Positions 4,429-20,794 of a stretch of 21,757 nt of DNA are shown here, piece by piece. The stretch covers positions 1,942,740 through 1,964,496 of the forward strand of contig CP070719.1 in NCBI GenBank assembly GCA_020350725.1. The letters are read 5' to 3'. The notes under the pieces were generated by a model, which worked only from the letters and a program-made list of their open reading frames with translations, made no database searches and was not told where the DNA came from. The DNA is from a bacterium. GTDB taxonomy: Bacteria > BMS3Abin14. Every line of letters starts with the position of its first letter. Position 1 is the stretch's first letter. Position numbers and translations under genes: made by a program.

Positions 4429-5928
4429 ATGACCGAAGGTATGATCAAAGGCCCGATCCTCGTCGTTGACGACGAGAGGTTCTTCCAGGATCTGCTTCTG
4501 AAGATACTGTCTGAGGAGGGATATGACGTATCGGTAGCCGGATCGGGAAGCGAGGCGATCAGGATGTTCGGGGAGGGCAGTTTCCAGGTCGTCGTTCTGG
4601 ATCTGGTCCTGCCGGACATCATGGGGACCGAGGTCCTGACCCGCCTGAGGGAGCTCGACCAGGATCTCGTTGCCATCATGATAACGGCCTACGCCTCGCT
4701 GGAGAGCGCCATCGAGGCCCTGAAGGCGGGGGCCTACGACTACATTCGAAAACCCATCGTCAGGGAAGATCTGCTCAGATCCGTGGAACGGGCCCTCGAG
4801 CGGCAGCAGTTGGCCGCCCACAACAGGATGCTGTTCAGGCAGCTCGAGGCACGTCTCGCAGAGGTCAAGGCCCTCAGCCGTGAGAAGGAAGAGGTTTTCC
4901 GGATTCTCGACGAAGGCCTTGTAGTCCTGGAGGAGAACGGCCGGATCATGGATCTTAACCCCATGGCCGAGAGGATCCTCGGCAAGGGGGAGTCACCACT
5001 GGCCGGTGTCGATTTTCACGACACCGGATTCCCTCTTCCGGATGGATTCCTGCCGTCGGTGGCGGCCAATGCGGGCAGGCCGGTCAGGGCGATGCTCGAG
5101 ATCACCGGTAAGGGAGGCGAACACCGCGACATCCAGTTGGTCGGCCTCTCCCTGTCACCCGATCCGTCCGTACCCAAGATCCTCCTCGGACTGCGGGACA
5201 TGACGGAGGTGAAGAATCTTCAGAGACGGCGGGAGGAGTTCCTCGCCATCGTGACCCACGATCTCAGGACCCCGTTGACCTCCCTGAAAGGTTTCATCGA
5301 ATTGCTCATGGAGGAACGTTACGAGCAGAACACCATGGTCATGGATTACCTGAAGATCATCGATGCCGAGACAGACCGCATGGTGTCGCTGATCAATGAT
5401 ATCCTGGACCTCGACCGCCTCGACTCGGACAGCCTCCACCTCGATATCAGGCCTCAGGTACTTCCGGAGCTCCTCGAATATACGGAGAAGATAATGGAGG
5501 GTTACGGTCGCCAGAGGGACGTCAATCTGAGGAGCACCGTCCGGGGAAGGGCCGAGGACCTGGTATTCCTCGGCGACCGCAACAGGTTCCTCCAGGTCCT
5601 GACCAACCTCTACTCGAACGCTATCCGCTTCTCGCCGAGGGGCGGTATCGTCGAGTCCGTCGCCTTCAGAGAGGCCGGGGAGGTCGTGGTGGAGATCCTG
5701 GATGAAGGTCCCGGAGTCCCTCCGGAGGAGATGGAGCGGATCTTCGATAAATACCACCAGGTTCGACAGCCTTTTCCCGAACGGGCCAAGGGGAGCGGTC
5801 TCGGCCTCACGATCGTCAAGAGGATCGTCGAAATGCACGGCGGCAGGATCCGGATGGAGAACAGGGGTGACAAACAGGGGAGCCGGTTCATCATCCGGCT
5901 ACCGACCGGAGACGAGGAGAGCGGTTGA
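4429..5928 (+). CDS. Receiver-PAS-histidine kinase (hybrid sensor kinase 1)
   Basis: Cytoplasmic two-component protein of 499 residues with no membrane segment. Order: receiver (about 6-125), with acidic pair D14/D15, phospho-acceptor D58 in VVVLDLVLPD and the K of RKPI; a coiled-coil linker; a PAS domain (about 158-262); HisKA with the H-box THDLRTPL (His277, Asp278); and a HATPase with N-box NLYSNAIRFSP, G1 DEGPGV and G2 GSGLGL. All catalytic motifs are intact. Having the receiver at the N-terminus suggests it takes phosphate from another kinase and controls its own catalytic half (inference). Start: ATG 4429 has GAGAG at 4419-4423; GTG 4423 or ATG 4441 are possible. The next gene begins on the last base of its stop codon. 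Confidence 0.9.
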   Translation: MTEGMIKGPILVVDDERFFQDLLLKILSEEGYDVSVAGSGSEAIRMFGEGSFQVVVLDLVLPDIMGTEVLTRLRELDQDLVAIMITAYASLESAIEALKAGAYDYIRKPIVREDLLRSVERALERQQLAAHNRMLFRQLEARLAEVKALSREKEEVFRILDEGLVVLEENGRIMDLNPMAERILGKGESPLAGVDFHDTGFPLPDGFLPSVAANAGRPVRAMLEITGKGGEHRDIQLVGLSLSPDPSVPKILLGLRDMTEVKNLQRRREEFLAIVTHDLRTPLTSLKGFIELLMEERYEQNTMVMDYLKIIDAETDRMVSLINDILDLDRLDSDSLHLDIRPQVLPELLEYTEKIMEGYGRQRDVNLRSTVRGRAEDLVFLGDRNRFLQVLTNLYSNAIRFSPRGGIVESVAFREAGEVVVEILDEGPGVPPEEMERIFDKYHQVRQPFPERAKGSGLGLTIVKRIVEMHGGRIRMENRGDKQGSRFIIRLPTGDEESG

Positions 5929-7967
5929 TGGAACCCAGAATACTGGTCGTTGACGACAGCCCATTCATTCATGAACTGGTCAAGGATATCCTCACCAAGG
6001 AGGGTTACAAGGTTGAGAGGGCCATGAACGGTCACGAGGCCATGGTCTCCATCGGTGAGAACCCGCCCAGCCTCGTTCTCCTCGACATCATCATGCCCGA
6101 GATGAGCGGTTACCAGGTGTGCCGCCTCATCCGGAGCGACGACCGCCTCAAGGACCTGCCGATCGTGATGATGACGGCCAAGGATACCCAGAAGGACCGG
6201 TTCTGGGGTCTCGAGGTGGGGGCGGACGCCTATATCACAAAACCCATCGAGGAGAAGGACCTCCTGGACACCCTTTCATCCCTTCTGGAGGAGACGCGTG
6301 TTCCCGCTGTGCCCGTCAGCAGGGAGGAACTGACCAGCGAGACACTGAAGGGGCGGGCCGACGACATTCTGGAGCGAAAGCTCATGGAGCTGACCATCAT
6401 CAGTGAAGTGGGCAAGCTCTCCTCGCATCTCGACAGGCCGGACGTCCTCCTCCAGAATACCCTCCAGCTTATCTCCAAGGTCATTGATTTCGATCTGGGC
6501 GCCATCCTGCTGGCCTTTCAGGGGAGCCGTACCAAGACCGTGGCGATACGCAGCCGGAACGTCCCCCTGAAACTATCCAAGAAGCAGCTGATCAGAAAGG
6601 GCAGCGAGACGCTCAGTTCGGAGAGGGGCTGCCCTGTTAACGAGATCACCTCCCTGGACACCGAACTGGTCGAGGACAGCGAGATCCAGGGGAGGGCGTC
6701 GAGGAAAGCGGTGGGATCGGAACTGGTGGTTATCCTCAGTTCCTCGGGTCGGGTGCTGGGTAATATCATGCTCCACAGCCACCGGAGCAATTTTTTCATC
6801 GCTGACGACAGGGCCCTGATCAACATGATCGGTTCTCAGCTGTCCGTGCTCCTCGACAATCTCAGACTCCTGAGGGAAAGGGACGATCAGCTCGCTGATC
6901 TGGAGCTGGAGAACAGCCGGGTGGAGGCCATTCTGAGGAATATAGGCGAGGGAGTCATCGTCACGGACTGGTCCTACAGGATCATACACGCCAACCCTCT
7001 GACACACCAGCTTCTCGGCATCGAGGACGATGAACTGGTCGGCCAGGTGCTCTTCGATCATATTCCCAAGGAACGTTTCAGTATCCTGGAGGAACAGCGC
7101 ATCGGTCAGGCCAATCCGCAGTGGAGCATCCGTTTTCTGTCCAAAAGGGGTGAGACCCCTCTCCTTGCCAGCGTGGCGGTGGTCGACGAAGAGGATGAGC
7201 AGACTCTGGGCCTTATCATCCTCCTCCGGGATGTAACCTCGGAACGGGAACTGGATCGGTTGAAGAACAAGTTCCTGGAGAACGTCTCCAATCATCTCAG
7301 AAACCCACTGACCTCGCTGAAGGGGTTTTCGGAGCTCCTCCGGGAGGAGGTTTACAGCGGTGCCCAGCCCCGCCAGAAGGAGTACATGGACGCCATCGAT
7401 GTCGAGTCAGGCAAACTGTCCGAGATCGTGGATGACCTGCTGAGCCTGACCCGCATCGAACTGGCCGATTACCGGTTTTCCCCGGAAACGTTCTCCCTGC
7501 CGGACGCTCTACTGACATCCATTGTCAACAATCAGAACGCCGCCCAGGCACGGGAAATCGCCCTCAAGGCGGACGTCCAGGACAATATGCCAAAGGCCTT
7601 TGCCGACAGGGACAGTGTCATCGATATCACCAACAGGCTTATCTCCAACGCCATCAAGTTCAGTCCGAGCAAAACGGTCGTCACCATAGGGGCCAAGGTC
7701 AAAAAGAGGGAGGGAACCGACAGTCAGTTGGAGGTTTTCGTCCGGGACGAGGGGCCCGGCGTGGCCAAGGACCGCAGGGACACCATTTTCGAGAAATACC
7801 AGAGTCACCATATCTTCACGGACGACGGCGCCGACAGCGTCGGCCTGGGCCTTCCCATCTGCAGAAAACTCGTGGAGATGAACGGCGGCCAGATAGAGCT
7901 CATCTCAGAGGCGCAGAAGGGCAGCACGTTCCTCTTTACCCTGCCCGTTTCCAGTGAGAGCCCCTGA
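5928..7967 (+). CDS. Receiver-GAF-PAS-histidine kinase (hybrid sensor kinase 2)
   Basis: 679 residues, soluble. Receiver at about 3-122 with D9/D10, phospho-acceptor D53 (VLLDIIMPEM) and the K of ITKPI; a GAF-like domain (about 150-325); PAS (about 328-440, containing IGEGVIVTDWSYRIIHANP); HisKA; and HATPase with N-box NRLISNAIKFSP, G1 RDEGPGV and G2 SVGLGLPI. The H-box reads SNHLRNPL: His456 is present but the next residue is Leu457, where Glu or Asp is usual. That acid assists phosphoryl transfer in HisKA kinases, so activity may be weak or altered (inference). ATG 5928 overlaps the upstream TGA by one base (TGATG) and follows GAGGAGA, indicating translational coupling to kinase 1. Confidence 0.9.
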   Translation: MEPRILVVDDSPFIHELVKDILTKEGYKVERAMNGHEAMVSIGENPPSLVLLDIIMPEMSGYQVCRLIRSDDRLKDLPIVMMTAKDTQKDRFWGLEVGADAYITKPIEEKDLLDTLSSLLEETRVPAVPVSREELTSETLKGRADDILERKLMELTIISEVGKLSSHLDRPDVLLQNTLQLISKVIDFDLGAILLAFQGSRTKTVAIRSRNVPLKLSKKQLIRKGSETLSSERGCPVNEITSLDTELVEDSEIQGRASRKAVGSELVVILSSSGRVLGNIMLHSHRSNFFIADDRALINMIGSQLSVLLDNLRLLRERDDQLADLELENSRVEAILRNIGEGVIVTDWSYRIIHANPLTHQLLGIEDDELVGQVLFDHIPKERFSILEEQRIGQANPQWSIRFLSKRGETPLLASVAVVDEEDEQTLGLIILLRDVTSERELDRLKNKFLENVSNHLRNPLTSLKGFSELLREEVYSGAQPRQKEYMDAIDVESGKLSEIVDDLLSLTRIELADYRFSPETFSLPDALLTSIVNNQNAAQAREIALKADVQDNMPKAFADRDSVIDITNRLISNAIKFSPSKTVVTIGAKVKKREGTDSQLEVFVRDEGPGVAKDRRDTIFEKYQSHHIFTDDGADSVGLGLPICRKLVEMNGGQIELISEAQKGSTFLFTLPVSSESP

Positions 7968-7970
7968 TCC

Positions 7971-9554
7971 ATGCCCCATAAGCACTACATAGTTCCGCAA
8001 CAGGAGATCCGGAGATTTATCGAATCCCTGGCTGAAGTGACCGGCACCATGATCACTTTTCTGAGTCGGGACGAGGACCGGCGATCCGTATCGGCCGGGG
8101 TCGGGCCTTTCTGTTTGAGCGTCCGGGGCACCAGTATGGGGGACAACAGGTGCAGGGAGTCCATCGGCGAACTGCTCGACCGGTCTCAGCCCGATGACGG
8201 GACGCTGTTCACTCTCTGCCATGCCAGGATGGGACAGGTGCTCTGTCCCATCCACATCAACGGCAGGCATCTCGGGCATGTCGTGATCTGCCAGGCGGTG
8301 GTTGAGGGGATATCGGAGGAGCACAGGGATCACCTTCGGTCCCTGGCCGAGAAACTGGGGATGGAGAGTCCCCAGTCCCTGGTTGCGCTGGCGGAAAAGA
8401 GCCCCGTTTTCAGCAGATCCGCCCTCGAGGGCCTGGGCCGTTTTATCCAGGAACAGATGGCGGAGAAGGTTCTGGCCAAAACCAGTCTCGAGGAAACCAC
8501 CCAGTTCCTCATGGATAAATACGAGGAACTGATGTTTCTCTATTCCATCACCGAAAACCTGGCCCCGGACCGGGAATACAGGAACTCCCTTTCGGTGATC
8601 GTGGACAGGGGTCTGCAGAAGCTGTCGGCGGATTCGGGCTTCTTTGTCCTCCCCGGGGCGGAAGGGACGCTGAGCCAGGACTCCTTCGAAATCCATGGAG
8701 AGGTATCCGGCGACCACCACACAGCCGGCCTTGTTGAGATCTCCGAGGACCTTGCCGGACCGGCCTGTGTGCTACCGGATCCGGTGGGGTATGAAGGGGA
8801 TGGAAATCGCAGAGCCGGCCTCATCTTTCCCTTCAGGATCAGGAACTACAGCAGGGGGCACCTGGTATTCTTCTGGGAAAACATGGAAAACGTGGGAGAC
8901 AGCGAAGTGAAATTCGCCGAGGCTCTCGCCAATCAGGCATCGTCCCTGCTCCACGGCGCCTATATGTACAAGGAGCTGGCCGATCTCCTCTTCAACACCC
9001 TCGAAGCGCTCAGCTCCGCCGTCGACGCCAAGGACCCTTATACCAGAGGGCACTCGCAGCGGGTTGCCGAATACGCTCTTATGATAGCCGCCGTCATGGG
9101 ATACGATTCGAAGTTTCTCACCATGCTCAAGGTCGCCGGCATGCTGCATGATTTCGGGAAGATCGGGGTCTCGGAAAAGATCCTGGCAAAAGAGGGCAGG
9201 CTGAGCGACGAGGAGCGGGAAGCCATCAATGATCATCCCGTGATCGGTTCCCGCATCCTGGGCAAGTTCAGGTCCTTCTCCGAGATCGTTCCCGGAATCA
9301 GACATCACCACGAGAGATTCGACGGGGGTGGATATCCGGACGGATTGACCGGGGAGAGGATCCCCCTCGTCGGCCGGATCATATCGGTGGCTGACGCCTT
9401 CGACGCCATGACCACCACACGTCCCTACAGGGAGAAGATGAGCCTCGAGGAGGCAAGCCAGGAACTCCGCAGGAACTCGGGAACCCAGTTCGATCCGGAA
9501 CTTGTCGAGAGCTTTCTCGCGTCCCTCGAAAGCAGGAATTCCCATGACGACTGA
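7971..9554 (+). CDS. PocR-GAF-HD-GYP protein, probable c-di-GMP phosphodiesterase
   Basis: 527 residues in three parts. Residues about 8-135 match the PocR sensory domain, with conserved Cys/His positions around LCHARMGQVLCPI and NGRHLGHVVICQA; such domains are thought to bind small metabolites. The middle (about 180-325) looks GAF-like. The C-terminal part (about 345-520) is an HD-GYP domain with the HD pair in GMLHDFGKIG (His393, Asp394), HHHERFDGGGYPDG with GYP at 454-456, and ISVADAFDAMTT. The expected reaction is hydrolysis of cyclic di-GMP, and the metal-binding residues appear intact. No membrane segments. It starts three bases after kinase 2 and overlaps the next gene by 11 bases, so it belongs to the same transcript. 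No GGDEF cyclase is present in the window. Confidence 0.9.
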   Translation: MPHKHYIVPQQEIRRFIESLAEVTGTMITFLSRDEDRRSVSAGVGPFCLSVRGTSMGDNRCRESIGELLDRSQPDDGTLFTLCHARMGQVLCPIHINGRHLGHVVICQAVVEGISEEHRDHLRSLAEKLGMESPQSLVALAEKSPVFSRSALEGLGRFIQEQMAEKVLAKTSLEETTQFLMDKYEELMFLYSITENLAPDREYRNSLSVIVDRGLQKLSADSGFFVLPGAEGTLSQDSFEIHGEVSGDHHTAGLVEISEDLAGPACVLPDPVGYEGDGNRRAGLIFPFRIRNYSRGHLVFFWENMENVGDSEVKFAEALANQASSLLHGAYMYKELADLLFNTLEALSSAVDAKDPYTRGHSQRVAEYALMIAAVMGYDSKFLTMLKVAGMLHDFGKIGVSEKILAKEGRLSDEEREAINDHPVIGSRILGKFRSFSEIVPGIRHHHERFDGGGYPDGLTGERIPLVGRIISVADAFDAMTTTRPYREKMSLEEASQELRRNSGTQFDPELVESFLASLESRNSHDD

Positions 9555-10524
9555 TCGGATCAAGCTCCTGATCGTTGACGACGAAGACAGCATTCGCCAC
9601 CTCCTGCGTCTCACTTTCAGTGAGGAGTACGACATCGTGGAGGCCGGTGATGGAGAGGAGGCCTTCGACGTAGCGCTCAGGGAACAGCCGAACCTCATCG
9701 TATCGGACATCATGATGCCGCGCCTCGACGGGTATGGTCTTTACCGTAAACTCAAATCCCGAACGGAGACCGCCTCGATCCCCTTCGTGTTCCTGTCGGC
9801 TAAGAAGGATATAGACGAGAGGGTCGTCGGCCTCGAGATGGGAGCGGATGACTATATTACGAAACCCTTCAGCGTCAAGGAGCTCAAGGCCAAGGTCAAC
9901 TCGATACTCAAGAAAGCCGGCGATCTTCGATTGAGGGGTAGCTTTGAGGGCCTTCTTGGAGATGTCGATCTGGTGGAAGTCGTTCAGCTCATCGAGATGG
10001 GGCGCAAGACGGGCATGCTGGTCCTTCAGGGTAAAAAGGACATCGGCAGGATCTACTTCGTCGAAGGGGAGCCCCGCTTCGCGGAGGTGGGTCCCTGGAA
10101 GGGGATCGAGGCTTTCTATTCCCTCCTCGCCTGGAAGGAGGGGAGATTCTGGCTCGATCCGTCGTCCTTCAAGGCGGAGGAGAACCTGGGGCGGACTAAG
10201 GGGCAGGAGCTTCTCATGGAGGGTGTCCGGCTCATCGACGAGATGAACGAGGCCAGCCGGCAGTTGCCGCCGGCTTCGGTGACCCTGTCACCTTCGGAGG
10301 ACCAGGTCCCGACCCAGGAGGATATGGCACAGGTCTGCAGGGCCTTCGAGGGCGGCACGACCGTTGAGGGTGCGGTCAAAAGGACGAGCCTGCCCCCCTT
10401 CCGTTTTATTCCCCAGGTCGCCAAGGCCATGTCTTCGGGTTACTTGAGGGCCGGTTCGGCCGATGACGGTGAAGCCGGTCTGCGATCGCTTCACAGGCTC
10501 ATGGATGAGCTGAGAAAACTATAG
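9544..10524 (+). CDS. Receiver-PATAN (DUF4388) response regulator
   Basis: 326 residues. N-terminal receiver (about 5-122) with D12/D13, phospho-acceptor D55 in IVSDIMMPRLDG, and the K of YITKPF. It is followed by a PATAN/DUF4388 domain (about 133-230) recognised from FEGLLGDVDLVEVVQLIE, GRKTGMLVL, GRIYFVEGEPRFAE and the AFYSLLAWKEGRFWLD segment. PATAN domains are protein-interaction modules, known from cyanobacterial PatA and common next to MglA-like GTPase systems. The C-terminal 95 residues are less conserved. No DNA-binding domain is visible, so output is probably by protein contact. ATG 9544 lies inside the end of the HD-GYP gene (11-base overlap), which favours coupled translation. It likely receives phosphate from one of the neighbouring kinases (inference). 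Confidence 0.88.
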   Translation: MTTDRIKLLIVDDEDSIRHLLRLTFSEEYDIVEAGDGEEAFDVALREQPNLIVSDIMMPRLDGYGLYRKLKSRTETASIPFVFLSAKKDIDERVVGLEMGADDYITKPFSVKELKAKVNSILKKAGDLRLRGSFEGLLGDVDLVEVVQLIEMGRKTGMLVLQGKKDIGRIYFVEGEPRFAEVGPWKGIEAFYSLLAWKEGRFWLDPSSFKAEENLGRTKGQELLMEGVRLIDEMNEASRQLPPASVTLSPSEDQVPTQEDMAQVCRAFEGGTTVEGAVKRTSLPPFRFIPQVAKAMSSGYLRAGSADDGEAGLRSLHRLMDELRKL

Positions 10525-10577
10525 CTTCCGGACCCGATGGGGGGCGGCGACCGGACTCCGCGCGCCCAGTCCGGAAG
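10525..10577. repeat. 9-base perfect inverted repeat after the receiver-PATAN gene
   Basis: CTTCCGGAC at 10525-10533 pairs perfectly with GTCCGGAAG at 10569-10577. Inside the loop GGGCG (10542-10546) can pair with CGCCC (10563-10567), giving a two-tier stem. It begins immediately after the stop codon. There is no U-tract, so it is not a classical intrinsic terminator; it could be a processing or stability hairpin. Confidence 0.6.
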
Positions 10578-10593
10578 GATCCCTCCCTCAGCC

Positions 10594-10607
10594 GCTTTCG
10601 CGAAAGC
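10594..10607. other. 14-base perfect palindrome
   Basis: GCTTTCGCGAAAGC is its own reverse complement. As RNA it folds as GCTTT-CGCG-AAAGC; as DNA it could be a dimeric protein site. A further hairpin, GCGCC (10614-10618) with GGCGC (10625-10629), follows at once. Function unknown. Confidence 0.6.
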
Positions 10608-10698
10608 CGCGGTGCGCCGTAAGGGGCGCGGAGAGTCGGGAGATGGGTGTTCGGCAGGCGGGAGCGGTTGTGTCGAGGTTGTCCAACAGGAGACCCCA

Positions 10699-11121
10699 AT
10701 GTTCTTCAGATACCTGATCATTTCTCCCTCGGGCGAGCTGAGACAGGCCTTTCTCGGCGGGATCTTCGGCGAGTTCGAACTGGCACCCAAGGGCCGAGGC
10801 GAGACCGCGCGGATGAGGACCCAGGCCGGTGATGAACTGGAGATCATCGGGGTGGGGGACGTCTCTAAGCTCAAGGCCACGGGTCAGGCGATCATCAACA
10901 GCGGCATCCGTATCGATGCCGTCCTGATGCTCCTCCCGTCCGGCGACGGAGATTCCTGGGAGGAGATCCAGCTCCTCACGGAGTGGCTCAAGAAAACGGA
11001 TCCCACATTACCGGTCAAGACCTGGGTGGTGAACAGCAGGACCGACATAGAAAAGGAGAGCTCGAGAAAGATCCTCCTGGAGTTGATGGACGAACATGAG
11101 AGAGCCATGAGGTTCGGTTGA
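10699..11121 (+). CDS. Small conserved-looking protein, possible degenerate Ras-like GTPase
   Basis: 140 residues, not confidently recognised. The alternation of strands and helices recalls an MglA-like small GTPase: strand FFRYLIISPSGELRQAF at the P-loop position, ELEIIGVGDVSKLKATG where a switch-II strand would be, DAVLMLLPSGDGDSWEEIQ, then WVVNSRTDIEKE at the NKxD position. The GxxxxGK[ST] P-loop is absent (residues 8-15 read ISPSGELR) and NKxD is degraded, so nucleotide binding is doubtful. Known PATAN-GTPase neighbourhoods fit a role as partner of the gene upstream (inference). ATG 10699 has AGGAGA at 10688-10693. The next start codon comes two bases after its stop. A receiver-like fold is the alternative. 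Confidence 0.7.
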   Translation: MFFRYLIISPSGELRQAFLGGIFGEFELAPKGRGETARMRTQAGDELEIIGVGDVSKLKATGQAIINSGIRIDAVLMLLPSGDGDSWEEIQLLTEWLKKTDPTLPVKTWVVNSRTDIEKESSRKILLELMDEHERAMRFG

Positions 11122-11123
11122 TC

Positions 11124-12752
11124 ATGCAGCCGGCCTTCACCGTGCACATCGACCTCCCCGATCCGGGGATTGTTTCCACACTGACTGGTTTGATAGGGGA
11201 TCTGGGAGGGGGTGTCCTGACGGCGTCCTCCTCGGATAGGGAGATCGACATCCTTCTCACGGAAAGGGAACGGGTTCAACCCCGCCAGGGCACCAGGGAA
11301 TCCTTGCTCGAATCACCCACCATCCTCCTGTGGTCTGAATCCACCCGGTGGGATCCCCACGATCTGCTGCGGAACAGGATTTTCGGCATTGTCGGACCCG
11401 GCTCGGACGGCGACGAGCTGAGGGATCTCCTGCAGGACGCTCTGGAGGACAGAAGATCCAGGCTCAGGCTCGTGTCTGAGTACGAGGACGTCAGGGATCG
11501 TTACATTGAACTGGCGACCGTGGTCCGGCTCAATCTTGAACTCGAACTCGAACTGAACGTCGACGAGGTCCTGGATAAAATAGTCAGACAGATCTCGGGT
11601 GAATTGGGATTCTCCATCATCTCCATCATGCTCCTCGATCGTTCGGAGAAATTTCTCAGGATCCGGGCATCCAAGGGTCTTGGCGAGGAGGTCCTCGCCT
11701 CGGCCAAGGTCGAGGTCGGGAAGGGGATCGCCGGCTGGGTAGCCAAGACCGGAGAGCCCCTGCTCGTCAGGGATATCGAGAGCCATCCGACACTGAAGAA
11801 GCTCCAGAGCCACGGGCGCTACACATCCAAATCCCTCATATGTGTTCCCCTGAAAGTCGGCGAACGGATCATCGGCGTCTTGAACGGCAACAACAGGGTG
11901 GGCCGGCAGGAGCTTAACGAGCATGACCTGAGGCTCCTGAGCGTCTACGCCTCCCAGGTCTCCATGAAGATCGAGAGGGCCCGCCTGTACAGGGACCTCA
12001 AGCGGCAGGCGGACAAGCTCAAGACGGCCTACGACAGACTTCAGGCCCTGGACAACATCAAATCGGACTTCATCACCAATGTTTCCCACGAGTTCCGGAC
12101 GCCTATCACCGTGATCCTGGGATATCTGGAGCTGCTAAAGGCGGGCCTTTCCGTGGAGGGCCAGATCAACAAGGTGAACATCGCGATGAAGGCGGCCTAC
12201 AGGCTTGCCCGGCTGGTCGATGACAGCACGGATATCCTGAGGCTGGACTCGGACACGATGCCCTTCTCCTTCACGCAGGTGAGCATACCCGATTTTGTCG
12301 GGAGCCTGGCGCAGAGGTATTCGACCCTCTTTGCCGAGAAGGGCGTCACGCTGACCGTCGATCTCCCCAAGGATCTTCCGAGGGTGTTTTTGGATACGGG
12401 CAAGATGAACAAGGTTTTCGATAAATTGATGGACAACTCGCTCAAATTCACACCCAAGGGTGGGCGGGCGACTCTTTCCTGCTCGATGCCGAATGAAGGT
12501 GAGGTTCGTTTCGCCATGGAGGACACCGGGCCGGGTATCCCCTTCGGTGAGAGGGAAAGGGTGTTCGAGAGGTTCGAGCAGGGTGGCGACATCATGACCT
12601 CGAAACCCGAGGGGACAGGACTGGGGCTTCCCATTGCCCGGGCGATCATCGAACGCCACGGAGGACGGCTCTGGATCGACGGGAAATACAGGGACGGATG
12701 CCGGATCCTGTTCACCCTCTCCTCGGGGAAGAAAAAGGACACACCGGGATAA
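11124..12752 (+). CDS. Pseudo-receiver-GAF-histidine kinase (sensor kinase 3)
   Basis: 542 residues, soluble. Residues 1-110 have a receiver-like strand order (FTVHIDL, IDILLT 41-46, TILLWSES 66-73, IFGIVGP 86-92) but lack the acidic pair, the phospho-Asp and the KP motif. A GAF domain follows (about 130-290: LNVDEVLDKIVRQIS, VGKGIAGWVAKTGEP, SLICVPLKVGERIIGVLNG), then a coiled coil, HisKA with H-box NVSHEFRTPI (His322, Glu323), and HATPase with N-box KVFDKLMDNSLKFTP, G1 EDTGPGI and G2 GTGLGL. The kinase half is intact. ATG 11124 begins two bases after the previous stop; its ribosome site is weak (GAGG at 11109-11112), suggesting coupling. A 490-base gap follows, so it probably ends its operon. 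Confidence 0.88.
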   Translation: MQPAFTVHIDLPDPGIVSTLTGLIGDLGGGVLTASSSDREIDILLTERERVQPRQGTRESLLESPTILLWSESTRWDPHDLLRNRIFGIVGPGSDGDELRDLLQDALEDRRSRLRLVSEYEDVRDRYIELATVVRLNLELELELNVDEVLDKIVRQISGELGFSIISIMLLDRSEKFLRIRASKGLGEEVLASAKVEVGKGIAGWVAKTGEPLLVRDIESHPTLKKLQSHGRYTSKSLICVPLKVGERIIGVLNGNNRVGRQELNEHDLRLLSVYASQVSMKIERARLYRDLKRQADKLKTAYDRLQALDNIKSDFITNVSHEFRTPITVILGYLELLKAGLSVEGQINKVNIAMKAAYRLARLVDDSTDILRLDSDTMPFSFTQVSIPDFVGSLAQRYSTLFAEKGVTLTVDLPKDLPRVFLDTGKMNKVFDKLMDNSLKFTPKGGRATLSCSMPNEGEVRFAMEDTGPGIPFGERERVFERFEQGGDIMTSKPEGTGLGLPIARAIIERHGGRLWIDGKYRDGCRILFTLSSGKKKDTPG

Positions 12753-13005
12753 CGGCCCCGGGAGGAGTCCAGGCCCGCTCCCGAAACCCCGTCACATCCT
12801 CTGTGTAAATCCCGCCGACGGCTACCGTTTCCTTCCGCCGGCTTCCACCGTTGCGGGCAGGATTCGGCACCCTCTCGAAACTCCATGGCCCGGCGCCAGA
12901 TCGGGCCGGGAGGCGGAACCGACCGTTTTCGGAAGAGATGACAGAGGGCACTCCCCGGACCGGAATTCAGCGTTGAAGGCGACAGTAGGCGGTTGCCCGG
13001 CGATG
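12753..13005. other. Non-coding gap after sensor kinase 3
   Basis: GC-rich, without a credible gene on either strand: the open frames give low-complexity, Arg/Pro/Gly-rich peptides and match no family I know. One clean inverted repeat is visible, GGCCCG (12887-12892) with CGGGCC (12902-12907). No U-tract terminator was seen. Together with 13006-13244 this is the longest gene-free stretch inside the signalling region. Confidence 0.6.
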
Positions 13006-13033
13006 TTGACATTGTCAGATTTGTTGTGATACA
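13006..13033 (+). promoter_or_regulatory. Candidate sigma-70 promoter for the chemosensory operon
   Basis: A perfect TTGACA at 13006-13011, a 16-base spacer, then GATACA at 13028-13033, preceded by TG at 13025-13026 as in an extended -10. The -10 hexamer is a modest match. It lies in the only AT-richer patch of the gap and would give a leader of roughly 200 bases before cheR. Confidence 0.4.
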
Positions 13034-13040
13034 AACCCAT

Positions 13041-13244
13041 TAATTTTGGTGGATGGGCAGCAGGTCCGTGAAACCGAGTGTTTTGGACAGGTTACAGCTG
13101 AACCGGGGCACGGGCCCGTTTTTGACAGCAGTTCCGTACATTCTGCCGGAGAAGGGGGGAGGGCATGACCTCCCCCTCCTAGTAAGCGGGACCCGAGTGG
13201 CCCAATGCTGGGCCCAATCATGAGGCCGTTACAGAGACGGAGCC
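13041..13244 (+). promoter_or_regulatory. Leader region of cheR with stacked hairpins
   Basis: Contains GGTT/AACC arms at 13090-13104, a short CGGG/CCCG stem (13104-13118) followed by TTTTT at 13119-13123, which resembles a weak terminator or attenuator, and a strong 9-base stem with a 6-base loop between 13154-13162 and 13169-13177. I could not match it to any riboswitch class I know. Confidence 0.4.
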
Positions 13245-14129
13245 TTGGTCGAACTGAAAATCTCAGATACCAGCCAACTCCCGGAAAGGGACGCCTGGGC
13301 CTTCGAGGCCCTGAAGGACCTCTTGATCAGGGAGAAGGGTTTCGATCTGGAGGCCTACAAGGAGAGATGTATCCTTCGCCGGATCTACCTGAAAGTCCGG
13401 TCCCGGGGATACGGCAGCCTCGGGCATTATTTCAGGGTTCTCAAACGCGACAGGGACGCTCTCGAGGACCTCTTCCAGTACCTGACCATTCATGTCACCG
13501 AATTCTTCCGCAACCCCTCCGCTTTCCATTACCTTCAGCAAAAGATCGTGTCCCGACTCCTTTCCGAAAGCGACAACTCCCACAGGTTGAATATATGGAG
13601 TGCCGGCTGTTCGAGCGGAGAGGAGCCGTACAGCCTGGCGATCCTCATGCTGAGGGTCCTCGAGAGGGAATCACCGTCACGATCGTTCAACATCCTGGCG
13701 ACAGACGTGGACGGGGCGGTCCTGGAAAAGGCGAAAAAGGGCTGGTACAAGACGGACGCCCTGAAGAACCTCCCCAGAGAGGAGCGGGAGACCTTTTTCT
13801 TCCCGGCGGACGGAGGCTATCAGGTCGTCGACCGGGTCAGAAAGTCCGTGACCTTTAAAAACGCCAACGTCCTGACCGAAATGCCCGAGAGCCGTCAGGA
13901 CCTGATCGTATGCAGAAATCTCCTCATATATCTGTCGAGAGAGAAACAGGAAAAGGTCATCACCAACTTCTCCAGGTGCATGAGACGAGGCGGCTATCTG
14001 ATGCTGGGAAAGGCCGAAACGCTCATCGGGCGCAACAGGCTTTACTTCCAGAATGTCTCGCCCACCGAGAGGATCTATAGAAAGAGGGACGTGCCCCTTG
14101 AGGAAGATCCCCTGGTCCCGAGAATCTGA
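13245..14129 (+). CDS. cheR: Chemoreceptor methyltransferase CheR
   Basis: Transfers methyl groups from S-adenosylmethionine to glutamates of chemoreceptors. 294 residues, normal length. N-terminal helical domain with LLIREKGFDLEAYKERCILRRI (about 26-47), then TIHVTEFFRN (81-90), the SAM-binding segment NIWSAGCSSGEEPYSLAI (116-133), ATDVDGAVLEKAKKGWY, and DLIVCRNLLIYL with a C-terminal MRRGGYLMLGKAE. An in-frame stop at 13221 limits the start, and the only reasonable codon is TTG 13245, with GGAG just two bases upstream; CTG 13254 would be better spaced, so the exact start is uncertain. No C-terminal pentapeptide-binding extension or tetratricopeptide repeats. First gene of the chemosensory operon, with a 67-base gap before the receptor gene. 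Confidence 0.95.
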   Translation: MVELKISDTSQLPERDAWAFEALKDLLIREKGFDLEAYKERCILRRIYLKVRSRGYGSLGHYFRVLKRDRDALEDLFQYLTIHVTEFFRNPSAFHYLQQKIVSRLLSESDNSHRLNIWSAGCSSGEEPYSLAILMLRVLERESPSRSFNILATDVDGAVLEKAKKGWYKTDALKNLPREERETFFFPADGGYQVVDRVRKSVTFKNANVLTEMPESRQDLIVCRNLLIYLSREKQEKVITNFSRCMRRGGYLMLGKAETLIGRNRLYFQNVSPTERIYRKRDVPLEEDPLVPRI

Positions 14130-14196
14130 CCACGGCCTCCCGTGTTCAGTTTGAAGGGACCGGGTCGGACACGGTAAGGGAAAGGAGTTCCCTGTT

Positions 14197-15453
14197 ATGA
14201 GAATGGAGATGAGATATAAGCTGATCCTGTCGTTTCTGATAGTGATCGCGGTGGTTGTTTTCGTTCCCTACATCTTCGATCTCTTCGGCGTGAGGGGGGG
14301 GTGGAGTGAGTTCGGGTCCACCTCTGCGGCCATAGCGGTCGGTCTGATTTTGGGCAGTGTCTTTGCCACCAACATCACCCGGGATATCCGGGAAATGAGA
14401 GACATCGCCAACTCCGTGAGCGAGGGTGACCTGACAGTGGATCTCTCTCCCGTCAAGAAGACCTTCGAGGATGAACTGACGGATCTCAGGGAATCACTCG
14501 GCGTGATGGTCAAGAGACTCTCCCTGATGGCCAAAAGCCTCAAGGCGTCGTCCGAAGACGTCCACGAGTCGGCCCAGACCCTCTCGGCAACTGCGGAGGA
14601 GATGAACGCTTCGACAGAGGAGATCGCCGCATCCATCGACGGCATCAGCAAAGGTGCCGAGAGCCAGGTGTCCCAGGTGGAGCGCATGTCCGAGTCCATC
14701 CACCAGATAGCCTCGAGCCTCGAGGCCATGGCCGAGAAGGGGAAGGAGGCGGCGAGGGTTTCCACCGAAGCGGGCTATACGGCTCAGGCCGGCGGCAAGC
14801 ACACGGAAACGGCGGTGACCAAGATCCGCCAGGTGTTCGATGCCGTCTCCCGTGCCGGTGAAATGGTGACGACCTTCGGCGAGAGCAGCAAGGAAGTCAG
14901 TGAGATCGTCGACATCATCACGGGCGTCGCGCAGCAGACGACCCTTCTTGCTCTCAACGCCACCATCGAGGCAGCCCGGGCGGGTGACTACGGCCGGGGA
15001 TTCGCCGTCGTTGCCGAGGAGATCCGGAAGCTGGCCGAAAACACCGGACAGTTCGCCGAGAGGATCTCGGGCATCATAGACCGCATCCAGAACGAGAGCG
15101 AACAGGTCCTCCTCTCCATGAGAGAGGTGGGCGGGGTTCTGGATGAGGGACAGGAGATCGTTCAGAGCATGGGCGGAGCCCTGGATGATATCGTCAAGGC
15201 TGTCCTGGAATCGACCAGCAACGCCCAGGAGATATTCCAGCTCACGGAAAAACAGAGCAAGGCCGCCGCCGATCTGACGACAGCCGCCGACGAGATATCA
15301 AGAGTTGCGGAGGATAACGCCGCCTCCACGGAAGAGGTTTCGGCGGCTACGGAGGAACAGACCGCCTCCATGGAGGAATTGGCGGCCTCGGCCCAGGACC
15401 TGACCGTCCTCTCTGATAAGCTGAAGAAACTATCAGAGGAGTTCAAGGTTTGA
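14197..15453 (+). CDS. Methyl-accepting chemotaxis protein without an extracellular sensor domain
   Basis: 418 residues. Two membrane segments (about 8-29 and 42-59) are separated by only about a dozen residues, so there is no periplasmic ligand-binding domain. A HAMP region follows (about 57-112), then the signalling coiled coil with the hairpin tip around 245-275 ([35 protein letters not shown]). Methylation-type EE pairs occur in both helices: [10 protein letters not shown] and [10 protein letters not shown] near 130-146, and [18 protein letters not shown] and SMEELAAS near the C-terminus. This fits CheR and CheD in the same operon. It presumably senses through membrane state or cytoplasmic partners (inference). 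ATG 14197 follows AAAGGAG at 14181-14187. Its stop overlaps the TTG start of cheW. Confidence 0.95.
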
Positions 15454-15956
15454 TCGGAGACAAGATCGAGCTCGTCGAATTCGGAGCGGATGTCGGAGAT
15501 CAGCCCGAAGACAGCGGCCACGGAGTCATCCTCTTTACCATCGGGAGTGAATATTTCGCCCTGCCCCTGGAGGACATCGCTGAGATCCACCGGACCGAGG
15601 AGATAACACCCCTGCCTCTGGCCCCCGAATTCCTGCTCGGCGTGATCAACGTCCACGGCATCCTCTCCTCGGTCATCCACATTGCGAAGATCATGAATGT
15701 CTCGGGGGACGAAGAGAGCGAACTTCTGATCAGGCTCATTCCGGAAAGGGGCGGCATCTCACTGATGGTCGGCGCGACGATGGGGATGGCCAGGTACTCC
15801 TTCCTCGAGGAGGTAACCAGGGAGATCAGTGACCGAACGGGGCAGGTAACTTTTGTCGAGGGTATCTTCCGCAGCGGAGAGAGGCTTGTCTCTTTGATTA
15901 ACCCCGAAAAACTTCGGGTCTGGATAGACGCGGCGTTCTCGAAAGGGGAGTTGTAA
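15450..15956 (+). CDS. cheW: CheW adaptor protein
   Basis: Couples the receptor tip to CheA. 168 residues with a variable N-terminal extension of about 24 residues before the CheW domain, which begins [21 protein letters not shown] and continues with [19 protein letters not shown], the hallmark of CheW, where GVIN-[VL]-RG is usual and NVHG replaces NLRG here. Start TTG 15450 overlaps the receptor stop (TTGA) and is preceded by GAGGAG at 15437-15442, a well-spaced ribosome site, so the unusual start is well supported. The stop overlaps the cheY start by one base (TAATG). Single CheW domain; no receiver, so not CheV. Confidence 0.92.
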
Positions 15957-16348
15957 TGGCCATTAAAGTGATGATCGTTGACGACGCCATGTTCATGAGA
16001 AACATGATCGGCGATATCTTCCAGGGAAAGAAGTTCGGCGAGGAGGAATACCAGATAGTCGCCGAGGCCGAGAACGGCCTCGAGGCGGTGGAGAAGTTCA
16101 AGGAACACCATCCTGATATCGTCACAATGGATATCGTGATGCCCGAGATGACGGGCATTGAAGCTTTGCGGGAGATCATGGATTACGACGGCAAAGCCAA
16201 CATCATCATGTGCAGCGCCCTCGGACAGGACAGCCTGGTCATGGAAGCCCTGGATTCGGGAGCCAAGGATTTCATAGTCAAGCCCTTTCAGCCCGAAAAA
16301 GTCCTGGACGTGGTCGTTCGGATCCTCAGAGAGGCGAGGGGGAACTGA
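15956..16348 (+). CDS. cheY: Single-domain response regulator CheY
   Basis: 130 residues, a lone receiver. Acidic pair at D9/D10 (VMIVDDAMFMRNM), phospho-acceptor D59 in VTMDIVMPEMTG, the conserved Ser in IMCSALGQ and Lys in DFIVKPFQPEKV. AMFMRNM after the acidic pair is typical of CheY proteins of the CheC/CheD-bearing type. It should take phosphate from the CheA encoded next and be dephosphorylated by CheC. The ATG overlaps the cheW stop by one base. A 103-base gap with no recognised element separates it from cheA. Confidence 0.93.
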   Translation: MAIKVMIVDDAMFMRNMIGDIFQGKKFGEEEYQIVAEAENGLEAVEKFKEHHPDIVTMDIVMPEMTGIEALREIMDYDGKANIIMCSALGQDSLVMEALDSGAKDFIVKPFQPEKVLDVVVRILREARGN

Positions 16349-16451
16349 AGATACAGCCGATCAACCGATACGTCCCCTGATCCCCCGCCAGAGCCGAGAA
16401 CGAGGCCGGATCGAGGATCACTGTCCCCTTCCCCCTGCGTCCGGGAGGTTT

Positions 16452-18485
16452 GTGCCCGCCATGGACATGTCCAAGTACAAGGATCTGTTTATCTCCGAGG
16501 CGAGGGAGCATCTGCAGGGCATCAACAACTGCATCCTCGTGCTGGAAAAGGATGCACAGGCCGTTGACAGCATCAACGAGCTGTTCCGCCATGCCCACTC
16601 CATCAAGGGAATGGCGGCCTCAATGGGATACGGCAAGATCTCCGAACTGAGCCACCACCTGGAGGACATGATGGATGTCTTCCGGAGGGGTCCGGCCCGG
16701 ATCACGCCTGCAGTGGTGGACCTGCTCTTTTCGGGGATCGATCACCTCGAGGAAATGGTCTCTGCTGTTGAAAAGGATGCCTCCTTCGACGATATCGATA
16801 CAGCCCCTTACGTTGCCCAGATCCAGAAGGTCATAGACGGTGAGATGCCCGGTGTGGAGGACGAGAAGGCGGGTGAAGAGGCCGGCATCGCGGCTGACGA
16901 ATCCGCAGTCGAGATCCCCGCGAAGGAATTTCCCTCCCTCGCCAGAGAGGATGTCCTGGTGAATTTCAGGATCGCGGAGGACTGCCCGGTACCCAACGCC
17001 AGGGCTTACCTCGCCATCAAAAGGCTCGAGTCCGCCGGGACCGTCAAGCTGGTCCAGCCGCCCGTTGATTCGGTGAAAGCCGGCGATTTCGACGGGGAGG
17101 TGACCGTCGTTCTATCCGGGGCGGACAGCCAGGATGTGAGGGGCATTCTGGAGAACTGTGCCGAGATGGGAGAGATCATCGTCCAGGCTGCAGCCGATCT
17201 GGAGGTGAAGAAAAAGCCGGTCAAGCCTCCGGAGAAGGAAAGGACGCCGCCGGCAGCGGCTGCCGAGAAGGAGGCGCCCGCGCCGGCCGCTCCCCCGGTT
17301 GCGGACCCGGTTGAGTCCGGGAGGGCCGCCAAAACGTCCGGGGCCAAGACGGTGCGCATCAGCACCGCCCTGCTGGACACCTTCATCAATCTGGTGGGCG
17401 AGCTCATCGTCACCAAGAGCCGGCTCAAGGACCTCGTCCAGGATCTCGGCACCACCACCTCCGAGCAGGTGATGACCCGCCTCGACCACCTCGTCGGCGG
17501 GCTGCACACAGAGGTCATGAAAGTCAGGATGGACCCTCTGGAGTCCGTGACCCAGAGGCTGCCGCGGGCGGTCAGGGACCTCGCCAGGAAAGCCGGGAAG
17601 GAGGTTGTCCTGGAGATCGAGGGATCGGAGATCGAACTCGACCGTGCGATCCTCGACGAGCTGGGCGACCCCCTCATCCACATCCTTCGAAACTCCGTGG
17701 ACCACGGCATCGAGAAGGCCTCGGAGCGCAAGAAGGCGGGCAAGGACGCCACCGGCCACATCAGGATCGTTGCCTACCGGGAGAGGGACATGGTCCATGT
17801 CGAAATATCCGACGACGGGAGGGGGATGGACCTGGAGAAGATTCGAGGCAAAGCCGTCGAGCGGGGCATCATCACCTCCGACCAGGCCAGGCTCATGGGC
17901 GAGGAGGAGACGATCATGCTCATCTGCAGGCCCGGTTTTTCGACGGCCGACGAGGTGACGGACGTGTCAGGGCGGGGCGTCGGTATGGACGTCGTCCAGT
18001 CGGTGGTGGAGGGGCTCGGCGGGACTCTCTCCATCCACAGCGTGACCGGCCAAGGAACCAATTTTACCCTCAAGCTGCCCCTCACAGTCGCTATCGTGAA
18101 GATGCTCCTCGTCCATCTCCTGGAGCACGTCTTCGCCATCCCCATCACGAGAGTTGTCCGAACCGTCAGCGTTGAGCTGGAAGAGGTTCAGGAGAGCCAG
18201 GGCCGTTTCTACCTGACCGTCGACGAGGATCTCGTTCCCCTCTTCGAATTGAGGAAGCTCCTGAACCTCCCCGGTTCCCTGAAGGACAGGCCCCTCCTTA
18301 CGGTGGTCCTCGTCGAAGTCACCAACAGGGTGGTGGGTATTGCCGTTGACGGTGTGTCGGGACAGGAGGACATCGTCATCAAGCCGCTCTGCTTCCCCCT
18401 CCAGTATCTGACGAGGTATTCGGGCATGACCGTTCTCGGGGACGGCAGGATCGTCCCCATCCTCGACCTGGGCAATCTATTCTAG
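16452..18485 (+). CDS. cheA: Chemotaxis histidine kinase CheA
   Basis: 677 residues with all five CheA domains. P1: FRHAHSIKGMAASMGYG with the phosphorylatable His49. P2 (about 160-250): VNFRIAEDCPVPNARAYLAI, the CheY-binding type seen in Thermotoga/Bacillus-like CheA. Then a Pro/Ala/Glu linker; P3 dimerisation (about 297-370, VRISTALLDTFINLVGELIV); P4 kinase with N-box HILRNSVDHGIE, G1 ISDDGRGMD, GFSTADEVTDVSGRGVGMD and GQGTNFTLKLPLT; and P5 CheW-like (about 540-677). All motifs are intact. Start: GTG 16452 is three bases after GGGAGG (16443-16448), whereas ATG 16461 is twelve bases after it; either is possible. cheC begins four bases after its stop. Confidence 0.97.
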   Translation: MPAMDMSKYKDLFISEAREHLQGINNCILVLEKDAQAVDSINELFRHAHSIKGMAASMGYGKISELSHHLEDMMDVFRRGPARITPAVVDLLFSGIDHLEEMVSAVEKDASFDDIDTAPYVAQIQKVIDGEMPGVEDEKAGEEAGIAADESAVEIPAKEFPSLAREDVLVNFRIAEDCPVPNARAYLAIKRLESAGTVKLVQPPVDSVKAGDFDGEVTVVLSGADSQDVRGILENCAEMGEIIVQAAADLEVKKKPVKPPEKERTPPAAAAEKEAPAPAAPPVADPVESGRAAKTSGAKTVRISTALLDTFINLVGELIVTKSRLKDLVQDLGTTTSEQVMTRLDHLVGGLHTEVMKVRMDPLESVTQRLPRAVRDLARKAGKEVVLEIEGSEIELDRAILDELGDPLIHILRNSVDHGIEKASERKKAGKDATGHIRIVAYRERDMVHVEISDDGRGMDLEKIRGKAVERGIITSDQARLMGEEETIMLICRPGFSTADEVTDVSGRGVGMDVVQSVVEGLGGTLSIHSVTGQGTNFTLKLPLTVAIVKMLLVHLLEHVFAIPITRVVRTVSVELEEVQESQGRFYLTVDEDLVPLFELRKLLNLPGSLKDRPLLTVVLVEVTNRVVGIAVDGVSGQEDIVIKPLCFPLQYLTRYSGMTVLGDGRIVPILDLGNLF

Positions 18486-18489
18486 ACAG

Positions 18490-19119
18490 ATGAAGGGCAC
18501 CCGGATCACCGGTCACCTCATGACGGAAGATGATATCAATATCATCCGGGAGGTCTGCTCCATCGGTGCCGTGCAGGCCGGCAAGGCCCTGACCAGGTTG
18601 ACCGGTCTGGATATCCTGGTCGAGGATCCCGATTTCATTACCATGACCATCGGTGACGTGCCGTCCCTGTTCGGCGGGATGAGACAGCCCGCTCTCGGGG
18701 TCCTGGTACCCTACGGGGGTGACGAGGAGGGAAAGATACTCCTTCTCCTTTCCGAAGAGGCGGCTACGGAACTGAAGGGCCTGATCCTTGAGGGCTCCCG
18801 GCAGAAGAGCGAGGCCATGGTGGACTCGGCCTTCCTGGAAATGGGAAACATCCTGACCGGGGCTGTCCTGACCATCCTGGCCAGACTGGCGGACAGGGTG
18901 CTCGTCAACAGACCGCCGATCCTCGTCAGGGACATGGCTGGAGCCATCCTGGATTCGATCCTCGCTGAGCTCGGAACCCTTTCGAACGTCGCCGTCGCCC
19001 TTGTCTACAGGCTTTCCCATCCTTCCGGCGGCGGTCTCCTCGAGACGGTGATCCTGCCCGATCCCGGGAGCCTCTCATTGTTCACGGATGCGGCCGAAAG
19101 GCTCAGATCCGGTCGATGA
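18490..19119 (+). CDS. cheC: CheC-family CheY-P phosphatase, one active site altered
   Basis: 209 residues. CheC removes phosphate from CheY-P and is stimulated by CheD. The second active-site signature is intact: SAFLEMGNILTGAVLTIL with Glu117 and Asn120, followed by NRPP at the expected spacing. The first, usually ExxNIGAGNA, reads EVCSIGAVQAG, so Glu21 is present but the Asn is Ser24. Single-site activity is therefore likely (inference). ATG 18490 has no strong ribosome site, and the gene lies four bases after cheA, suggesting coupling; ATG 18520 is an alternative start. Its stop overlaps the cheD start (ATGA). FliY is excluded because no C-terminal FliN domain is present. Confidence 0.9.
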   Translation: MKGTRITGHLMTEDDINIIREVCSIGAVQAGKALTRLTGLDILVEDPDFITMTIGDVPSLFGGMRQPALGVLVPYGGDEEGKILLLLSEEAATELKGLILEGSRQKSEAMVDSAFLEMGNILTGAVLTILARLADRVLVNRPPILVRDMAGAILDSILAELGTLSNVAVALVYRLSHPSGGGLLETVILPDPGSLSLFTDAAERLRSGR

Positions 19120-19598
19120 AACCCGTCGTCGTCGGGATCTCCGACTTCAGGATAGCCCGTAAGCCCCAGAGGCTTGTGACCTACGGCCTCGGGTCATGCG
19201 TGGCCATAGCCATCTACAGCCGCCGGGACGGGGTGGCAGGAATGGCGCACATCATGCTCCCCCTGGCATTCGAACGGGACCAGGTTCTCATGCCCGGCAA
19301 ATATGCCGACACCGCGGTAGAGGCCATCATGGAGGCCTTCAGGGAGAGGGGGATCGGACAGGGCGACATGGAGGCCAAGCTGGCCGGCGGTGCGGAGATG
19401 TTCCCCAGGGCCGTCGAGGGGATAGGAACCAGGATCGGTGCCCGAAACGTGTTAGCGGCCCGATCCATCCTGGAAGATCATGACGTCCGGATCGACGGCC
19501 AGGATGTGGGGGGCAACCTGGGAAGGACCGTGGAATTTCACACGGAGACATGGGAGATGCTCGTCAGAACCCTGAGGGGCGGGATGAAGGTGATCTAG
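19116..19598 (+). CDS. cheD: Chemoreceptor glutamine deamidase CheD
   Basis: Deamidates receptor glutamines and, in systems with CheC, shuttles between receptors and CheC. 160 residues, standard length. LVTYGLGSCVAIAIY carries the catalytic Cys28, with Thr22 and His45 (GMAHIMLP) completing the triad known from the Thermotoga enzyme. Other conserved parts are KYADTAVEAIM, AKLAGGAEMF, IGARNVLAARSIL and DVGGNLGRTVEFHTETW. The ATG overlaps the cheC stop. It is the last chemosensory gene; no cheB follows, and the next 197 bases are repeat-containing non-coding DNA. Confidence 0.96.
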   Translation: MKPVVVGISDFRIARKPQRLVTYGLGSCVAIAIYSRRDGVAGMAHIMLPLAFERDQVLMPGKYADTAVEAIMEAFRERGIGQGDMEAKLAGGAEMFPRAVEGIGTRIGARNVLAARSILEDHDVRIDGQDVGGNLGRTVEFHTETWEMLVRTLRGGMKVI

Positions 19599-20720: not shown

Positions 20721-20793
20721 AGGTTTCGGGTTCCAGGTTGCAGGCCGGTGGATTTACCCTGGAACGTGAAACATGGAGACTGGAACATGAGCT
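20721..20793. repeat. Paired heptad arrays forming a hairpin between folD and larB
   Basis: Units aggtttc, gggttcc, aggttgc, aggccgg (20721-20748) are followed by ctggaac, gtgaaac, atggaga, ctggaac, atgagct (20759-20793). Bases 20723-20736 pair with 20759-20772 at 12 of 14 positions around a loop of about 20 bases. No U-tract follows. The array runs almost into the larB start codon. Confidence 0.75.
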
Positions 20794-20794
20794 G

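Follow-up and report, generated by a model that had tools for sequence, protein, structure and literature searches.

The window analyzed here, a stretch of 21,757 nucleotides, spans positions 1,942,740-1,964,496 of the closed 2.78-Mb genome (G000) of an uncultured bacterium. From left to right it carries galU, hsp20, lon, the kinase-type genes HK1 and HK2, a PocR-GAF-HD-GYP gene, a REC-PATAN gene, the gene for a small protein that we call p140, HK3 and, after a 490-bp gap, cheR, mcp, cheW, cheY, cheA, a CheC/CheX-like gene, cheD, folD and larB. Every gene from galU through larB lies on the + strand, and galU, hsp20, lon and folD are named from their own sequences. The larB gene (nickel pincer cofactor synthesis) occupies window positions 20738-21568, downstream of folD. 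The features of the run between lon and folD are, in window coordinates, as follows.

4429-5928, + strand: HK1, REC-PAS-HisKA-HATPase_c, with an intact receiver Asp and the canonical H box THDLRTPL (Pfam; family alignment)
5925-7967, + strand: HK2, REC-GAF-PAS-HisKA-HATPase_c, a candidate pseudo-histidine kinase (Pfam; family alignment)
7290-7310 (G000:C1:1950029-1950048), + strand: codons of the degenerate HK2 H box NHLRNPL (residues 456-462)
7971-9554, + strand: PocR-GAF-HD-GYP, a predicted c-di-GMP phosphodiesterase with a PocR sensor (Pfam; alignment)
about 9544-10524, + strand: REC-PATAN (DUF4388) response regulator (Pfam; alignments)
10699-11121, + strand: p140, a predicted Ras/MglA-fold protein without the G1, G3 and G4 motifs (AlphaFold, structural matches, family alignment)
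11118 or 11124 to 12752, + strand: HK3, pseudo-REC-GAF-HisKA-HATPase_c (Pfam; alignments; model and fold match)
12753-13244, no strand: non-coding gap that divides the run into a kinase half and a che half
13245-14129, + strand: cheR (Pfam)
14197-15453, + strand: mcp (Pfam; alignments)
15450-15956, + strand: cheW (Pfam)
15956-16348, + strand: cheY, a single receiver domain with its Asp intact (Pfam; alignment)
16452-18485, + strand: cheA, Hpt-P2-dimerization-HATPase-CheW, with the Hpt His intact (Pfam; alignment)
18490-19119, + strand: predicted CheC/CheX-like CheY-P phosphatase (below-cut-off Pfam and NCBIfam matches; ExxN motif)
19116-19598, + strand: cheD (Pfam)

Every domain that an earlier note had named in this run was found at the position given there, by Pfam or, for the pseudo-receiver of HK3, in an AlphaFold model. 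The absence of a transcription-factor output, also remarked upon in that note, is borne out, as no protein of the 4429-19598 run has a DNA-binding domain match in Pfam. The kinase genes had been placed directly upstream of a che operon. The two halves are indeed adjacent, but the non-coding gap separates HK3 from cheR, and in three relatives (L017, L018, and L021) a TrkH-type cation transporter gene sits in this interval (identified by Pfam in L017, positions L017:10912-12348, and by sequence likeness in the other two). Because of the gap and of the transporter gene found there, the run probably comprises two transcription units, and the interval at 12753-13244 may hold the che promoter. Rfam returned no match, including for the gap itself, and promoter and terminator scans gave no more matches than in shuffled sequences, none of them credible.

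The receiver Asp and Lys of REC-PATAN are intact and strongly conserved in the family alignments. The HD-GYP motifs (HD...HDFGK...HHE..DG.GYP, corresponding to HD, HDxGK, HHE, and DGxGYP) are likewise intact and conserved, and the earlier assignment of a c-di-GMP breakdown function to this protein agrees with its predicted catalytic residues. The PocR cysteines are conserved except in G001, where a scaffold gap cuts off the PocR part. CheA, CheW, and the MCP, the core of a chemosensory system, are all present by Pfam. The MCP, which shares 73-79% sequence identity across the family, has two membrane segments separated by a ∼12-residue loop, a HAMP domain and a signaling domain, and no ligand-binding domain was found in it by Pfam or in the alignments. 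The CheC/CheX-like protein scores below cut-off both in Pfam and against the NCBIfam CheC model (E 2.8e-14) and shows an ExxN motif in the alignment.

Further PATAN genes lie elsewhere in the genome. The gene for a second CheA, of 679 aa, is immediately preceded by that for a PATAN protein of 601 aa (G000:C1:1472902-1478246; L062:6902-12246), so that a PATAN gene stands beside cheA twice in G000, and this second pairing is kept in G008. Another locus (L064:3313-7756; G000:C1:2401312-2405755) encodes a REC-GAF-GGDEF protein, a tRNA-synthetase-like gene and a PATAN-REC-GAF protein, in an order again kept in G008. PATAN proteins of G000 occur also outside any type IV pilus (T4P) context.

Gene order was compared in close relatives, which represent one family; all other comparison genomes are related only at the domain level. 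On unbroken contigs, G002, G003, G007, and G009 keep the complete order that runs from lon or HK1 through to cheD. Together with the window's own genome this gives unbroken order in four genera, with consistent partial loci in three more, and protein identities across the family loci range from ∼43 to 87%. Partial but consistent pieces are present in G001, G004, G005, and G008. Two of these drafts interrupt the order, between cheY and cheA in G008 and at two points in G001, each time exactly at a 100-N scaffold gap, and 119 bp are duplicated as an overlap on both flanks of the break in G008; these breaks are therefore assembly joins. The recurrence of the gene order that had been proposed as a check was thus found, but it does not by itself establish the single linked pathway that had been envisaged: galU, hsp20, lon, folD, and larB are retained in the same run in most relatives, a clean background for comparison was not found, and gene order alone is consequently weak evidence for a shared pathway and does not single out this run. 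Between G000 and G008, 15 of 16 neighboring ortholog pairs are kept inside the run and 76 of 114 outside it, a contrast that we dropped as evidence in either direction because the G008 assembly is interrupted by 342 scaffold gaps and all broken pairs are close to such a gap.

These data bear on the view that the locus consists of two independent neighbors with separate outputs, namely a kinase/c-di-GMP/PATAN unit at 4429-12752 and a che unit at 13245-19598, which would be adjacent only through slow change of gene order in the family. The intergenic gap with its TrkH insertion, the retention of the flanking genes and the pairs kept outside the run, with the broken ones attributable to scaffold gaps, all speak for such an arrangement. 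The locus is nevertheless the longest conserved run found in the G008 comparison (12 genes), and the second CheA of the genome, too, has a PATAN gene just upstream; overall we regard two unrelated units as rather unlikely and prefer a connected network.

The three kinases differ in their H boxes. Those of HK1 and HK3 are canonical (THDLRTPL or SHEFRTPI and close variants; SHEFRTP in HK3). In HK2 the motif reads F-L-x-N-V/I-S-N-H-L-R-N/S-P in all six family genomes in which the gene could be read, so that Asn occupies the phospho-acceptor position and is followed by His (+1), where other kinases carry an acidic residue. An alignment slip was rejected as the cause of this motif: the residues F, V/I, S/T, L, R, and P around it line up on either side with no gap. 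All HK2 members retain their receiver Asp along with the N and G boxes for ATP binding, and the HATPase_c domain of HK2 is matched with an E value of 1.7e-19. A codon scan of 386 genomes for NHLRNPL found family genomes at the HK2 locus and in a few cases elsewhere. Outside the family it matched five genomes, compared with six matches of a reversed control pattern, and the DNA-level motif is therefore not enriched there. HK2 is thus probably a pseudo-histidine kinase conserved in this family, as judged from the aligned sequences. The phosphotransfer profile suggested earlier for the three kinases cannot hold for HK2 in the ordinary sense, because its phospho-acceptor histidine is lost.

Two positions of the H box help to weigh whether HK2 is catalytically dead. 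In HisKA kinases the acidic residue after the acceptor is required for phosphotransfer chemistry, and the residue four positions after the acceptor supports phosphatase activity. The +4 residue of HK2 is Asn in five of the six genomes (Asn or Ser overall). HK2 could accordingly be a phosphatase-only enzyme, with the +4 residue aiding dephosphorylation of REC-PATAN or of the HK1 receiver, or it could use the shifted histidine. The Asn at this position and the retention of the N and G boxes in all members are in line with a residual phosphatase, but the acid after the acceptor has also gone, replaced by His, and this +1 His would be expected to point to another face of the helix. We consider an active HK2 of either kind somewhat improbable and treat it in the following as a candidate pseudo-kinase.

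The N-terminal domain of HK3 has no Pfam match. Its AlphaFold model, of moderate confidence (pLDDT 75), is receiver-like (Z 12.8 to PleD and other REC domains). The acidic pocket is absent from this pseudo-receiver, and the whole domain is absent in the alignments of G003, G007, and G009 and is therefore dispensable.

The earlier note had called the 140-residue protein GTPase-like. For p140 this holds at the level of the predicted fold and fails at the level of motifs and profile matches. An AlphaFold model calculated from eight family sequences (pLDDT 90, pTM 0.85) has the strand-helix order E H E E H E H E H. Its best structural matches are Rab35 (Z 13.5, 136 residues, 2.8 Å) and Myxococcus MglA (Z 12.9, 136 residues, 3.0 Å), and the structural matches listed are all Ras-superfamily or related G domains (Z 11.6-13.5, 124-137 residues aligned) with sequence identities of only ∼8-14%. 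We are thus confident in the prediction of a Ras/MglA fold. The GxxxxGK[ST] (G1), DxxG (G3), and [NT]KxD (G4) motifs are missing in all eight aligned members, such that p140, by its sequence, is not able to bind GTP through the known motifs and represents a candidate pseudo-GTPase. No sequence link to GTPases was obtained by Pfam, NCBIfam, PDB profile search or hhalign; hhalign against the MglA of the family gave a probability of 2.8, placing the likeness at the fold level only. PDB profile matches to designed repetitive β-trefoil proteins were judged spurious. This lack of sequence similarity to MglA or any GTPase would suit an unrelated small adaptor whose likeness to Ras reflects convergent α/β topology. 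We deem such convergence quite improbable, given that p140 matches many Ras-superfamily structures over its whole length and that strands 2 and 3 are adjacent in its predicted order, as is typical of small GTPases.

Profile matches to p140 in the 386 genomes are confined to this family. A scan of GTDB contigs found the protein in three family MAGs, from relatives named SZUA-204, bin582, and bin676; matches in Pseudomonas cover part of the query only, at 34-47% identity, and there was no match in plasmids. In a survey of prokaryotic Ras-like GTPases, sequences shorter than 150 aa were excluded because a conserved region was missing from each of them, and MglA and MglB genes were reported to lie sometimes near PATAN genes (PMC4316618). 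Being short, without the conserved regions and close to a PATAN gene, p140 fits both remarks. The literature that we searched, with incomplete coverage, contained no paper on a bacterial small pseudo-GTPase. The missing GTP motifs of p140 and the lost acceptor histidine of HK2, both read from alignments, go beyond the earlier note; its observation is confirmed, and its interpretation is partly supported.

We next consider what such a system could control. The closed G000 genome lacks the flagellar motor switch protein FliG, the sole weak FliG_C match being an MgtE-like magnesium transporter, and a flagellar (class F) chemotaxis system was rejected on these grounds. T4P genes are present elsewhere in the genome, away from the locus, with PilB and PilT side by side and an additional PilM. 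The CheA/CheW/MCP core, the missing FliG and these pilus genes agree with a pilus/ACF-type chemosensory system. PilB carries an MshEN domain with the motif RLG..LV...LI....L..AL..Q and adjoins PilT at L059:5350-8379 (G000:C1:660349-663378); MshEN is a c-di-GMP receptor (PMC5013675). A type II/IV secretion ATPase carrying a fused FHA domain is encoded at L060:3601-5226 (G000:C1:845600-847225), with no match in G008 by tblastn. A canonical pair of MglB (Roadblock) and MglA lies outside the locus (L083:1459-2558, about G000:C1:112278-113376); the pair is kept in the family, and an alignment over four relatives shows 88-93% identity for MglA. G008, which was read whole, has PilB, PilT, PilM, MglA, and MglB at 80-90% identity. 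With 12 GGDEF and three PilZ matches, G000 is equipped for c-di-GMP signaling.

These GGDEF and PilZ matches, and the PATAN proteins found apart from pilus genes, would also suit an output in exopolysaccharide (EPS), biofilm or an alternative cellular function, with REC-PATAN binding some partner other than the pilus machinery. In G002 (99% complete, 160 contigs), where the locus is intact, a PilB-PilT pair was not found and PilM was matched only weakly, which speaks against a pilus output, though less so because its congener G008 has PilB-PilT. The PilB of Myxococcus xanthus is itself reportedly an EPS regulator. To our knowledge, however, the only characterized PATAN partners are PilB and PilC, and the PilB of this genome contains the MshEN domain. 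We hold a non-pilus output to be unlikely.

From the parts and their motif losses, which are facts of the sequence, and from the confidently predicted p140 fold, we infer a flagellum-independent chemosensory/two-component network, which most likely sets T4P activity or polarity; we favor this reading tentatively, at slightly less than an even chance. HK1 and HK3, and perhaps CheA, would phosphorylate REC-PATAN and the HK2 receiver. Like DivL, HK2 would not serve as a phosphate donor, being presumably incapable of autophosphorylation; its role would be to detect a phosphorylated receiver or to gate a partner kinase. Phosphorylated REC-PATAN would then act on the pilus motor PilB, in the manner of the PATAN regulators of Synechocystis chemotaxis-like systems, which bind PilB (PMC10519157; PMC12288463). 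With a Ras fold and no nucleotide switch, p140 could serve as a fixed-state adaptor that connects REC-PATAN to the pilus motor or to the separate MglA-MglB pair. PocR-HD-GYP may lower c-di-GMP in response to a small-metabolite signal and thereby affect the MshEN domain of PilB. Going further, the pseudo-GTPase and the pseudo-histidine kinase might be the core adaptors of the circuit, with p140 mimicking one fixed MglA state and so letting phosphorylated PATAN recruit or block the pilus motor without a GTP cycle, an idea that we put forward as doubtful. Taken together, our analysis suggests a circuit for the control of surface motility in which some of the components are "dead" enzymes.

PATAN control of pili by chemosensory systems and MglA control of polarity are known separately. 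If this locus joins the two through a non-switching Ras-fold protein, a GTPase fold would have been turned into a plain adaptor in bacteria, as is known mainly for eukaryotes. With its shifted N-H motif, HK2 likewise offers a clean natural test case for histidine kinase function without the histidine.

Comparison with the Pix, Pil, and Tax systems of Synechocystis reveals a shared CheA/CheW/MCP core, a REC-PATAN output regulator and a single-domain CheY-like receiver, in organisms with T4P and a c-di-GMP pathway and without flagella. PATAN follows the REC domain here and precedes it in Synechocystis; CheC, CheD, and CheR are present here; and separate REC-kinases, including a probable pseudo-kinase, lie upstream of PATAN, with the Ras-fold protein and PocR-HD-GYP alongside. 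The Frz/RomR/MglA-MglB system of M. xanthus also combines a chemosensory system with MglA, MglB, and T4P in one organism, and as in Frz the circuit proposed here includes a receiver protein along with one of Ras fold, and no MCP ligand-binding domain was found. The Ras-fold protein of our locus, however, lacks all GTP motifs, and the real MglA-MglB pair is located elsewhere in the genome.

For HK2 the closest parallel is Caulobacter DivL, which lacks the acceptor histidine, keeps the other kinase boxes, senses a phosphorylated receiver and acts in a network with true kinases (PMC4211667), a setting that we count as a further likeness. Both proteins show a conserved replacement of the acceptor histidine, intact remaining boxes and a PAS domain. 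HK2 differs in having its own intact receiver and a GAF domain, and in carrying Asn in place of the DivL Tyr, with His at +1. Eukaryotic pseudo-GTPases such as Rnd, CENP-M and the p190RhoGAP domains act as scaffolds or allosteric regulators and, like p140, keep the Ras fold while having lost features of the nucleotide switch (PMC10211241). In contrast to these, p140 is bacterial, comprises only 140 residues, belongs to a chemosensory locus and has lost all three of the main GTP motifs.
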